NCBI GenBank assembly: GCA_031262035.1
Contig: JAISIL010000095.1
Location: forward strand, 1 to 41,152
Origin: Spirochaetaceae bacterium
GTDB taxonomy: Bacteria; Spirochaetota; Spirochaetia; Treponematales; Breznakiellaceae
DNA: 41,152 nucleotides
Reading direction: 5' to 3'
The notes below the pieces were generated by a model. The model was not told the DNA's origin. It saw only the letters and a list, made by a program, of their open reading frames with translations, and did not search any database. Of the stretch, positions 17,976 to 20,775 are shown one piece after another. The position numbers and the translations under genes are program-made. The stretch's first letter is position 1. Each line of letters opens with the position of its first letter.

Positions 17976-18947
17976 TTACTCATCACGTTTTGTGTAGGGG
18001 CCTGTCCAGGCGGTTCTGGGGTGATAGAGATACAAACCGGCTGCCTTGCCCTTACTGCTATAGTATGTATTAAATGTTTCGCCATTGTTACCAAAAGCAT
18101 CATCATTTGCAATATTCACATTTGATTCCAATAGAATAGACCGTATCGGGTTTTCGGCGAATGCATCTTCGGGAATTGTTGTTAGGCTTGCAGGAATAGT
18201 AATTATTTCTATGTTATTATTGGCAAAGGCTTTTGTGGCAAGGCTTGTCAGGTTTGGGGGCAGGGTAACATCGCTGAGCCAGCAATTAGAAAAAGCATAT
18301 TCTTCAATTGTGCTAATATGTTGGGGAATACTCAGTTTTGATAAATAGAACGAAGAATTTCTAAAGGCACTCTTGCTGATGGTAGTTATAGTTTCGGGAA
18401 ATGAAATTGATAAGATATTGTAGTAAATTCTGGCAAAGACACCTTCTGCAATGGCCGTTATTGCCTGGCCATTGTGCTGAGCAGGTATTTTGATAGGCAC
18501 GCCATCCCAGCCGGGCCAGTTTACACCGGAAATAGTCTGACCATCATACTGGTAGAATTCTTGCCAGACAGCAACAAAAGTTATATCTGTGACAGAATGG
18601 CTTTCTTCAGATTCATATTCAAAATAGTTATAGGGAAGATAAATCCACTTAAATGCTTCTCCGTCGATAGTATAGGCATCTTTCAGCTTCCAGCCTGCAA
18701 AAATTATGGTACCATCTTCACGGGTAAGATTATTTTCGGGCATTTGCATTATGAGGATAGATTCATTTTGCTTATACTGAGTGTTATCAATCGGAACAGG
18801 GCCACCGGATGGGTCAATGTAGGTAACATTGACATAAGTATCGCCATTTTCATCAGGGATATAATAGAAACAGGAGATTAATAGCAGGCTGAGCGCTATG
18901 CTTATCGGTATAAGAAGGAGCAATTTAATCTTCGCGATACGGGCCAT
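17976..18947 (-). CDS. BspA-like leucine-rich-repeat lipoprotein
   Basis: The 323-residue product has a lipoprotein signal peptide: hydrophobic residues 8-25 and a lipobox LLISC with Cys26. Residues about 35-130 form a module ending in FAGWKL and VAVWQEF, like the InlB-type B-repeat fold. Residues about 140-280 hold BspA-type (LRR_5) repeats, e.g. TITTISKSAFRNSS and HISTIEEYAFSNCWL. The C-terminus (NIANDDAFGNNG, then TYYSSKGKAAGLYLY) is shared with the next gene upstream. GGAGG nine bases before the ATG supports the start although it overlaps the preceding gene by 23 bases. Probably surface or periplasmic, for binding or adhesion. Confidence 0.88.
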   Translation of the reverse strand: MARIAKIKLLLLIPISIALSLLLISCFYYIPDENGDTYVNVTYIDPSGGPVPIDNTQYKQNESILIMQMPENNLTREDGTIIFAGWKLKDAYTIDGEAFKWIYLPYNYFEYESEESHSVTDITFVAVWQEFYQYDGQTISGVNWPGWDGVPIKIPAQHNGQAITAIAEGVFARIYYNILSISFPETITTISKSAFRNSSFYLSKLSIPQHISTIEEYAFSNCWLSDVTLPPNLTSLATKAFANNNIEIITIPASLTTIPEDAFAENPIRSILLESNVNIANDDAFGNNGETFNTYYSSKGKAAGLYLYHPRTAWTGPYTKRDE

Positions 18948-19620
18948 CCCAAGCGCCTCCTGTATAGAGATAAACGCCGCCCTTCATTCCATTGTCCCGG
19001 TAATAGGTGCGGAATTCCGCACCATAGTCTCCAAAGGAAGTATCATCGGCAATCGCTACATTTGCGGCAATCGTAATGGTCGTTATCATACTATCAAATG
19101 CAGCAGTGCCGACACTTTGTATGCTTTCAGGTAAGATGAGGTTTGTATAGTCTGTTCTGTTAAAAGCAGAATCTCCAATAGCGACAACAGGTTTATCACC
19201 AAATGTTGCCGGAATAAAAGGCCTTCTTTCGCTTCCAAAATAACTGGTGATGGTCGCTTTGCCGTCTGCGACGGTATAGCTGAACGGACTGTTATCGGGA
19301 TTGTCTTTCCATTTTGCATAAAGATAGAGGTCGGCTGATATTGTAAGTCTATCGCCCGGCTTGTATAATTTGATTCCATCTTCAGTGTTAGCAAGCCAGC
19401 CTTCAAAACTGAGGTTCCCTCGCTTTAAATTGCCCTGGCCTGCAATAGTAAAAGTTTCCCAGTCATAATACTTTTTTGTTTCAGGAATTTCCCCCGAGGT
19501 AGCGCCATTATCGTCATAGAAGACATAGAAGTCGCCGGACATATCGCAGGATAGAAAGCTTAAGAAGGTTACAGCGAAGATGAGCATCAAGAAAACCGGC
19601 CTGAAAATTTTTTGTATCAT
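18925..19620 (-). CDS. lipoprotein with B-repeat-like module and BspA-like C-terminus
   Basis: The 231-residue product starts MIQKIFRPVFLMLIFAVTF and has lipobox LSFLSC with Cys25. The first module (to about residue 95) ends LSFEGWLANTEDG and LYLYAKWKD. One or two LRR_5 units follow (DKPVVAIGDSAFNRTDYTNL). The last 45 residues, NVAIADDTSFGDYG then TYYRDNGMKGGVYLY, match the C-terminus of the following gene. The start at 19620 follows GGAGGAAGGCCT and overlaps the stop of the upstream lipoprotein (ATGA). A paralogue of the downstream gene, probably by tandem duplication. Confidence 0.87.
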   Translation of the reverse strand: MIQKIFRPVFLMLIFAVTFLSFLSCDMSGDFYVFYDDNGATSGEIPETKKYYDWETFTIAGQGNLKRGNLSFEGWLANTEDGIKLYKPGDRLTISADLYLYAKWKDNPDNSPFSYTVADGKATITSYFGSERRPFIPATFGDKPVVAIGDSAFNRTDYTNLILPESIQSVGTAAFDSMITTITIAANVAIADDTSFGDYGAEFRTYYRDNGMKGGVYLYTGGAWDGPYRED

Positions 19621-19973
19621 AGGCCTTCCTCCGGCGTCCATAGCGCAACAAATGAGTAAGTTCCAGTTCCGTCATTGGGAATGCTGATTGTGTCCCCCGC
19701 TTGATACACCTTCTCTGTTTCAAATTCAGAAAAAGAACAATAATCTATTTTCCAGCCTGAAAAAGTATGACCCGGATAAAAAACCGTTTCCGGCTTGGCA
19801 AGAATAGTAAAAGTTTGGCCTGGGAAATAAACATTTGAATCGACCGGAGCATTGCCTGTTGCTTCTTCTGTAATTGAATAGTAGACCTTTACAACAGCAT
19901 TGTCCCGATACATATCCGGACAAGCACTCAAGAGTAAGGATATAATGATAAAAATTACTCCTATTCTCTTCAT
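19617..19973 (-). CDS. short lipoprotein with B-repeat-like module
   Basis: The 118-residue product has a signal peptide MKRIGVIFIIISLLLSAC with lipobox Cys18. The rest is one module with YYSITEEATG, TFSGWKIDYC and a final YSFVALWTPEEG, matching the first module of the two downstream lipoproteins but without leucine-rich repeats. It is eight bases after the preceding membrane-protein gene, and no Shine-Dalgarno is visible in that gap, so it may rely on translational coupling. Confidence 0.82.
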   Translation of the reverse strand: MKRIGVIFIIISLLLSACPDMYRDNAVVKVYYSITEEATGNAPVDSNVYFPGQTFTILAKPETVFYPGHTFSGWKIDYCSFSEFETEKVYQAGDTISIPNDGTGTYSFVALWTPEEGL

Positions 19974-19981
19974 ATAAATAA

Positions 19982-20464
19982 CTAAAAATAATACACGACC
20001 TGGCCATTTTTGAATTTGACAGGCGATGCATGTAGTTTTTTATCGGAGACGGCATCAAGTATGATGCCGGTTATGAGTAAGGCGGTTCCTGTAGCCGCGG
20101 TGCCAATGGTAATCTCTAACCAGGGAGAGGCCGGATAAAAATCCTTGAAAAGAAAATCCCAGCCTTCCCGAAGCCAAGGCCAAAGGTTTTGGTCCGCCCA
20201 GCCGTTTTTATACACCGTCCCAAAGGTAAAAAGCGTTACGCCTAGCACTACAACAAAGTCAAAGGTAGCAAGGCCGATAATTGGAGCCGCAGGAACAGCC
20301 AGTAGACTGCCCCCTGCTAAGGTAAACCATCCCCCTACAGTAGTGGGCAATTTTGAAAAATCATACTCGTGGTGTTCTAATGCAGTAAAACCGAATTCTT
20401 GTGCAGATAAACCACAAAGACATGCAAAAAGGAGGATTATACTAATGATAATCACTTTCTTCAT
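19982..20464 (-). CDS. exported or membrane protein starting one base after tRNA-Lys
   Basis: The 160-residue product starts MKKVIIISIILLFACLCGL with probable signal-peptidase cleavage after LSA, then has hydrophobic segments at about residues 40-85 and 120-143. No family is recognised. Its ATG lies one base downstream of the tRNA-Lys discriminator base, and the sequence upstream is entirely tRNA, so there is no Shine-Dalgarno. A start three codons upstream (20473) would lie inside the tRNA and is rejected. If the tRNA 3' end is matured by RNase Z, the remaining mRNA begins T-ATG. Confidence 0.83.
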   Translation of the reverse strand: MKKVIIISIILLFACLCGLSAQEFGFTALEHHEYDFSKLPTTVGGWFTLAGGSLLAVPAAPIIGLATFDFVVVLGVTLFTFGTVYKNGWADQNLWPWLREGWDFLFKDFYPASPWLEITIGTAATGTALLITGIILDAVSDKKLHASPVKFKNGQVVYYF

Positions 20465-20465
20465 A

Positions 20466-20538
20466 TGAGCCAAGATGGATTCGGACCATCGACCACCGCC
20501 TTAAAAGGGCGATGCTCTACCAACTGAGCTATTGGCCC
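20466..20538 (-). tRNA. tRNA-Lys (UUU)
   Basis: The minus strand folds as a full cloverleaf of 73 bases. The acceptor GGGCCAA pairs with TTGGCTC with one G-T pair. The D arm is GCTCAGTTGGTAGAGC, the anticodon loop CTTTTAA (anticodon TTT), and the T arm GATGG, TCCGAAT, CCATC. Discriminator A. CCA is not encoded. It is 76 bases downstream of tRNA-Phe. Confidence 0.95.
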
Positions 20539-20569: not shown

Positions 20570-20613
20570 AATTGCGAAGCAATTCTCTGGAAGAAAGCCC
20601 GGAGGGCTTTCTT
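20570..20613. repeat. two trinucleotide-loop hairpins between the tRNAs
   Basis: Stem AATTGC, loop GAA (20570-20584), and stem AAGAAAGCCC, loop GGA, stem GGGCTTTCTT (20591-20613). The second starts two bases from the tRNA-Phe 3' end, without a T-tract on the minus strand, so it may be a processing or stability element rather than a terminator. Confidence 0.7.
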
Positions 20614-20614
20614 T

Positions 20615-20687
20615 TGCCGCCTCGCGGAATTGAACCGCAGACACGCAGATTTTCAGTCTGCTGCTCTACCAACTGAGCTAAGGCGGC
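20615..20687 (-). tRNA. tRNA-Phe (GAA)
   Basis: The minus strand gives a 73-base cloverleaf. The acceptor GCCGCCT pairs with AGGCGGC. The D arm is GCTCAGTTGGTAGAGC. The anticodon stem GCAGA/TCTGC encloses loop CTGAAAA (anticodon GAA). The T arm is GCGG, TTCAATT, CCGC. Discriminator A, CCA not encoded. It is the first gene of the tRNA-lipoprotein transcript. Confidence 0.95.
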
Positions 20688-20690
20688 AAC

Positions 20691-20736
20691 GTAAAATCCT
20701 TCGGATTTTACTTACGGAGTTTGCTGCGCAAACTCC
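20691..20736. repeat. two perfect trinucleotide-loop hairpins before tRNA-Phe
   Basis: Stem GTAAAATCC, loop TTC, and its perfect complement at 20691-20711, followed four bases later by stem GGAGTTTGC, loop TGC, and its complement at 20716-20736. They fill the predicted 5' leader of the tRNA-Phe transcript. Confidence 0.8.
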
Positions 20737-20746
20737 ATATGTATTC

Positions 20747-20775
20747 AGTATATAAAAAATGGCAAAAAGTGTCAA
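20747..20775 (-). promoter_or_regulatory. promoter of the tRNA-lipoprotein transcript
   Basis: On the minus strand TTGACA (20775-20770), a 17-base spacer and TATACT (20752-20747) form a strong promoter. The -35 box contains the stop codon of the upstream glycosyltransferase gene. Start of transcription is expected near 20740. Confidence 0.8.

Follow-up and report, generated by a model that had tools for sequence, protein, structure and literature searches.

Eight of the 41 tRNA genes detected in the genome of a Spirochaetaceae bacterium are followed, 0–9 nt past their 3′ ends, by an open reading frame that starts with ATG, as against 4/171 in four relatives (p = 0.0003). This junction arrangement and its excess over the relatives are solid. 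The explanation that we consider best is that tRNA 3′ cleavage releases near-leaderless mRNAs; in the absence of RNA or protein data, we lean towards it without regarding it as established.

One of the eight junctions lies in the window (the whole stretch of DNA that was analysed, 41,152 nt), between tRNA-Lys(UUU) and a gene designated ORF1. The features of this locus are the following.

20747–20775, minus strand: strong sigma-70-like promoter, TTGACA-17-TATACT, upstream of tRNA-Phe
20691–20736, minus strand: double-hairpin leader module before tRNA-Phe, GGAGTTTGC..GCAAACTCC-GTAAG-TAAAATCC..GGATTTTA-CGTT
20614–20688, minus strand: tRNA-Phe(GAA), upstream of tRNA-Lys in tandem and in the same orientation (ARAGORN, Rfam)
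20591–20613, minus strand: hairpin between tRNA-Phe and tRNA-Lys, AAGAAAGCCC/GGGCTTTCTT
20466–20538, minus strand: tRNA-Lys(UUU) (ARAGORN; Rfam RF00005, 69.5 bits)
20465, minus strand: T between the tRNA-Lys discriminator and the start codon, that is, a U directly 3′ of the discriminator
19982–20464, minus strand: ORF1, predicted 160-aa exported orphan with signal peptide MKKVIIISIILLFACLCGLSA, without a Shine-Dalgarno (SD) sequence
19617–19973, minus strand: ORF2, predicted 118-aa lipoprotein, starting 8 nt past the ORF1 stop, without SD
18925–19620, minus strand: ORF3, predicted lipoprotein, with SD GGAGG before ATG 19620
17976–18947, minus strand: ORF4, predicted exported protein or lipoprotein with BspA-type LRRs, with SD AGGAGG before ATG 18947

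The acceptor stem of tRNA-Lys, GGGCCAA/TTGGCTC, is closed by discriminator A20466, the gene does not encode CCA, and the ORF1 ATG (20464–20462, minus strand) lies one base past A20466. No SD is present in the last bases before this ATG, TTGGCTCAT, and none exists outside tRNA-Lys. The original prediction had placed the end of the minus-strand tRNA at A20466 and the ATG at 20464, which was exact, and its statement that there is no encoded CCA and no SD outside the tRNA also held. It had further claimed that ATG 20464 opens an exported protein, and this held at the level of prediction: the start yields a standard signal peptide with n-region MKK, and the coding score is positive (0.14 per codon versus an antisense median of −0.34). 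No Pfam match was obtained for ORF1, and no homologue was found in 58 relatives, 200 family genomes or viral contigs. Since a homologue is lacking in the 200 family genomes, the ORF1 start is not fixed by conservation; it is inferred from the signal peptide and the coding score, and ORF1, being an orphan, is the weakest example among the tRNA-joined genes.

It could be argued that ORF1 starts at TTG 20473, inside the tRNA-Lys acceptor arm, or at another codon, in which case the T-ATG spacing would be incidental. Indeed, the frame is open upstream as far as this TTG, and a GTG is present at codon 4. We nevertheless find this highly improbable: ATG 20464 yields the canonical n-region, and T-ATG or TT-ATG also precedes apt and the IF-1 gene (infA), whose starts are fixed by homology.

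The genome-wide count was made on an assembly of 3.07 Mb in 215 contigs that is 99% complete, from which nearly all tRNAs were collected (41 by ARAGORN and 40 by Rfam; one ARAGORN call, a tRNA-Pro on L076, is probably false). The 171 tRNAs of the relatives come from three complete genomes, G028, G029 and G061 (47, 45 and 50 tRNAs), and from G026 (29), the relative whose apt and UvrD proteins come closest to those here. CCA is encoded by 0/41 tRNAs of the window's genome. The eight junctions have the following spacers between the tRNA and the ATG.

Leu-GAG: 0 nt
Lys-UUU: 1 nt (ORF1)
Met-CAU: 1 nt (apt)
Ser-UGA: 2 nt (infA)
Arg-CCU: 3 nt
Ala-CGC: 5 nt
Leu-UAA: 6 nt
Leu-CAG: 9 nt

All eight genes start with ATG and no SD is found at the junctions. 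The downstream proteins are IF-1, adenine phosphoribosyltransferase, a UvrD-type helicase, a Na/Pi cotransporter, an HTH-cupin protein, a DUF4015 protein and two orphans, so that six of the seven junction genes other than ORF1 (infA, apt and the genes of the helicase, the cotransporter, the HTH-cupin protein and the DUF4015 protein) are conserved.

Three further candidates were not counted. For tRNA-Val, which has an ATG at 5 nt, an SD-led ATG at +50 is the more likely start; the trigger-factor gene, 13 nt past tRNA-Leu(UAG), has an SD and a GTG start and is not of the junction type; and gltX, 16–17 nt past tRNA-Tyr and without SD, is borderline. The longer spacers of the trigger-factor and tRNA-Val genes thus contrast with the junctions of the same genome. 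In G026, the single case (L393) is a tRNA-Arg(CCG)-TT-ATG junction that opens a conserved-looking protein beginning MEPIILASGSLRRQ, probably Maf; it is an independent case, indicating that the junction occurs sporadically elsewhere in the family.

At three loci, comparison with relatives bears directly on where translation would start. In 27/29 relatives infA has a GTG start behind an AGGAG SD, and in the remaining 2/29 it has an ATG start and no SD. Here infA follows tRNA-Ser(UGA) as TT-ATG, without SD and with the same N-terminus, MAKEEAIEVEGVV. The infA start codon tracks the presence of an SD in 30/30 genes, with ATG in all three cases that lack one (p = 0.0002). For apt, a tRNA-Met of the same kind comes first in G026, then a hairpin, a spacer of about 175 nt, an SD and the gene, whereas here a single T separates tRNA and ATG, and hairpin, spacer and SD are all absent. 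That SD and spacer are missing at infA and apt is shown; it is likely that the apt junction came about when the terminator, spacer and SD still present in a relative were lost. The UvrD protein lacks the first few residues of the relatives' proteins and starts at the first ATG past tRNA-Leu; the absence of these residues leaves no possible start before the tRNA-proximal ATG. The evidence from infA, apt and UvrD therefore indicates that the tRNA-proximal ATG is the start at the three loci and that the leader of the relatives is gone.

The tRNA-Ser-infA junction was not seen in any relative examined, nor by a pattern scan of genome contigs, and its conservation across the family was rejected: it is lineage-specific. 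Separately, the infA genes of the two relatives without SD (L214, L223), with ATG in place of GTG, are apparently leaderless from a promoter of their own.

These observations leave a fair chance, though less than even, that the junctions are side effects of deletion in a lineage that is shedding intergenic DNA, functional without regulatory meaning, and that ORF1 is perhaps minor or decaying. The pattern is strongest in the window's lineage, apt shows spacer loss, and ORF1 is an orphan; against this, the ORF1 frame has stayed open, with coding bias and a signal-peptide sequence, and ORF1 is the first of four genes in an operon. The alternative bears on purpose more than on mechanism, and is compatible with release of near-leaderless mRNAs by tRNA cleavage. 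Lineage-restricted spacer loss favors tolerance at the origin of the junctions, and regulation cannot be distinguished from tolerated deletion.

Leaderless translation would have to be available to the host, and its genome carries a corresponding signature. A simple start-finder written for the task was applied to 239 genes in 369 kb of sampled sequence; we note that it is crude, and that the sample is enriched for tRNA-bearing contigs. An SD-like motif of at least four bases precedes 55% of these genes (background 14%), and 35% have none. A −10 hexamer located 4–10 nt before the ATG, the position from which transcription would begin at the AUG, is found in 29/67 ATG genes without SD versus 1/117 genes with SD (p = 3e-14). 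Overall, the leaderless-type −10 signature is present in 36/239 genes here versus 22/300 in three relatives (p = 0.005). The 16S rRNA is missing from the assembly, and the anti-SD could be checked in the relatives only, where it is intact. The signature itself is shown; that the host translates leaderless mRNAs is likely, being inferred from it and not observed. The original prediction had likened the tRNA-Lys junction to leaderless genes elsewhere in the window, which fits the finding that leaderless-type promoters are common throughout the genome.

The abundance of such promoters also speaks for a rival explanation, in which the tRNA-joined genes have leaderless promoters of their own hidden inside the tRNA genes, and adjacency reflects genome compaction only. 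In addition, a 9/12 promoter-like match spans the tRNA-Lys junction (TTGGCT at 20473, TATCAT to 20445). This match, however, would initiate inside ORF1, and such matches are near chance (9 found versus 6.3 expected). Furthermore, no −10 hexamer of at least 5/6 occurs in leaderless position inside the eight tRNA ends, where the best reach 2–4/6, as compared to 29/67 of the genes without SD. Hidden promoters are thus unlikely, and because the −10 box is missing inside the tRNAs, the eight joined genes probably need the tRNA's transcript.

For the locus in the window, the TTGACA-17-TATACT site upstream of tRNA-Phe is, on sequence evidence, the likely source of readthrough into tRNA-Lys and ORF1–4. 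The AAGAAAGCCC/GGGCTTTCTT hairpin might be a partial terminator that could limit this readthrough. No clear promoter of its own was found for tRNA-Lys and no terminator lies 3′ of it, so that transcripts passing its 3′ end run directly into ORF1; as the assembly holds one copy of tRNA-Lys(UUU), its transcript must be made and trimmed. ORF1–4 are closely packed, with 8-nt gaps or overlaps. ORF3 has Listeria-Bacteroides-repeat and BspA-type LRR matches that fall below curated cut-offs. A C-terminal motif is common to ORF3 and ORF4, GVYLYTGGAWDGPY / GLYLYHPRTAWTGPY (window 17976–19641, minus strand), and may point to a duplication.

We propose that tRNA-Lys(UUU) and ORF1–4 would form one transcription unit, transcribed either from the promoter before tRNA-Phe or from a weak one lying between tRNA-Phe and tRNA-Lys. 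An endonuclease would cut directly past the discriminator; RNase Z is the most likely enzyme, because CCA is not encoded. The cut would free the pre-tRNA 3′ end for CCA addition, and the same cut would leave an mRNA with a 5′ phosphate beginning U-AUG, to be translated by leaderless initiation, a route apparently used by many other genes here. The same device for turning tRNA ends into leaderless mRNAs would operate at about eight tRNAs of the species. It is an inference that the tRNA and the protein genes are transcribed together, that the cut falls precisely at the discriminator and that ribosomes initiate at the 5′ end so produced; translation is inferred as well. The original prediction had stated that a cut at the tRNA 3′ end would give a T-ATG mRNA and link tRNA maturation to translation; this is supported by the sequence tests, with release and translation inferred and not measured. 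Against our explanation, part of the start region is predicted to be base-paired when the freed 5′ end folds.

An RNase Z gene is encoded in the genome (TIGR02651, 354.8 bits). The RNase Z of B. subtilis is responsible for maturing CCA-less tRNAs, and a U no more than 2 nt past the discriminator raises its activity about 200-fold (PMC10100781). Such a U is found at 6/8 junctions (Lys, Met, Ser, Ala, Leu-UAA and Leu-GAG, where the AUG start codon supplies it), and is absent from the Arg (GAG-ATG) and Leu-CAG junctions. It is also present at 21/41 tRNAs of the genome; as it is not enriched at junctions over other tRNAs, it shows compatibility only. Leaderless mRNAs in E. coli need a 5′ phosphate and prefer AUG (PMC9031893). 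The products of RNase Z are known to carry a 5′ phosphate.

Alternatively, the tRNA 3′ end could be made by downstream cleavage and 3′-to-5′ trimming, in which case ORF1 would be translated from uncleaved transcripts only, if to any extent worth mention, and a given transcript would serve either as tRNA or as mRNA. Such a route is known in bacteria, mostly for CCA-encoding tRNAs (PMC4681348; PMC3848588). Here, however, no tRNA of the genome encodes CCA and RNase Z is present; housekeeping genes, that of IF-1 included, would lose their starts through trimming, and a folded tRNA directly 5′ of the AUG leaves no SD. We therefore regard this pathway as unlikely, and retain release by RNase Z cleavage as the preferred reading.

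The original prediction had also suggested comparing the junction in related genomes. An ancestral spacer with SD was seen at another junction, tRNA-Met-apt. A conserved tRNA-Lys junction was not found in the relatives, where tRNA-Lys sits elsewhere and is several times followed by a terminator; since no sister species with the tRNA-Lys-T-ATG arrangement was found, selection for this junction itself cannot be shown. The glycosyltransferase gene upstream has homologues in relatives with up to 49% identity, its closest named records being Treponema and Spirochaetaceae MAGs, and no tRNA lies near these homologues in the relatives. We infer for the genome a termite-gut lineage, probably Breznakiellaceae. 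In one relative (G139, L061), ATGGTGCATATCGCTTTTACAGGAGGTGG, which reads like a MurG start, comes 11 nt past tRNA-Lys. Attachment of a prophage or integrative element at the tRNA-Lys 3′ end was considered and rejected, because matches to the region elsewhere in its own genome are partial tRNA matches only, the ORF list holds no integrase-like gene, and the same junction precedes housekeeping genes.

Punctuation of mRNAs by tRNAs is typical of animal mitochondria and unusual in bacteria. The junctions are reminiscent of the mitochondrial system (Ojala et al. 1981; cited in PMC4633059) in that tRNA and mRNA lie 0 to a few bases apart and no separate promoter or ribosome-binding site is found for the mRNA. 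In mitochondria, tRNA excision makes the 5′ end of a leaderless mRNA starting near its AUG; here that step is inferred. Unlike mitochondria, this is a 3.07 Mb bacterial genome with mostly ordinary promoters and an SD-like motif at about 55% of genes, only about eight genes are involved, and transcripts are not genome-length. Because the processing step lacks RNA evidence, we class the arrangement as a bacterial variant of leaderless-mRNA formation and keep it apart from the mitochondrial system.

Among bacterial systems, the leaderless mRNAs of mycobacteria, Streptomyces, Deinococcus and Propionibacterium are translated without SD from an AUG lying at the 5′ end or a few bases from it, which for the junctions is an inference, and the genome studied here also has many ordinary leaderless-type promoters; at the junctions, however, the 5′ end would come from tRNA processing and not from initiation at the start codon. 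The E. coli thrU-tyrU-glyT-thrT-tufB operon is a tRNA-mRNA operon in which an SD-containing leader lies between tRNA and gene. It shares with the junctions a protein gene co-transcribed 3′ of tRNAs (for the junctions, an inference), but the distance here is 0–9 nt, without SD. In the dicistronic tRNA-sRNA and tRNA-snoRNA units of plants and archaea (PMC4247193), tRNA 3′ cleavage by RNase Z frees a downstream RNA, as proposed for the junctions; there it is non-coding, whereas here it would be an mRNA with its start codon at the cut. The leaderless mRNAs attributed to MazF in E. coli (PMC9031893) similarly come from endonucleolytic processing, although that is a disputed cleavage by a stress toxin and here housekeeping tRNA maturation would be responsible. 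We found no report of bacterial leaderless mRNAs released from tRNAs in the open-licence literature searched, although this does not prove that none exists.

If the released ends are translated, this would be a bacterium with mitochondria-like logic, using tRNAs as punctuation to make leaderless mRNAs. Maturation of tRNAs would then be linked to expression of specific proteins, including IF-1, and the species would offer a natural test bed for leaderless initiation on processed 5′-monophosphate ends. The apt locus shows a step in the evolution of a junction, as a relative keeps the hairpin, spacer and SD that are missing here. Gene finders that reject starts touching a tRNA could miss or misplace such genes. 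A bolder reading, which we are rather more inclined to doubt than to accept, is that the lineage evolved tRNA punctuation, with RNase Z cuts at several single-copy tRNAs making leaderless housekeeping mRNAs, including that of IF-1, and tying output of the translation apparatus to tRNA maturation capacity.

Two further observations concern the tRNAs themselves. U55 is nearly universal in tRNAs, where it becomes pseudouridine. In the T loop of tRNA-Lys (20466–20538; TCCGAAT; GGTCCGA), position 55 is a C, as it also is (GGTCCGA) in the tRNA-Met before apt (C155:14421–14493); the tRNA-Lys of relatives has U55, and C55 is found in tRNA-Gly(GCC) of 4/4 genomes checked. In addition, a strong hairpin (9–14 bp) lies 0–2 nt from the 5′ end of 19/41 tRNAs in the window's genome, as compared to 8/142 in three relatives, counted up to 8 nt away (p = 6e-9). 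These hairpins, seen at 20691–20736 of the window and on L012, L013, L015, L016, L017, L020, L022, L027, L030, L032, L033, L065 and L072, often belong to a double module, GGAGTTTTGC..GCAAAACTCC-GTAAG-(variable palindrome)-CGTT-tRNA. Ten copies of ACTCCGTAAG occur in 369 kb, nine of them within tRNA leaders; this is a repeat family specific to tRNA leaders, which may be mobile or act as a processing signal.
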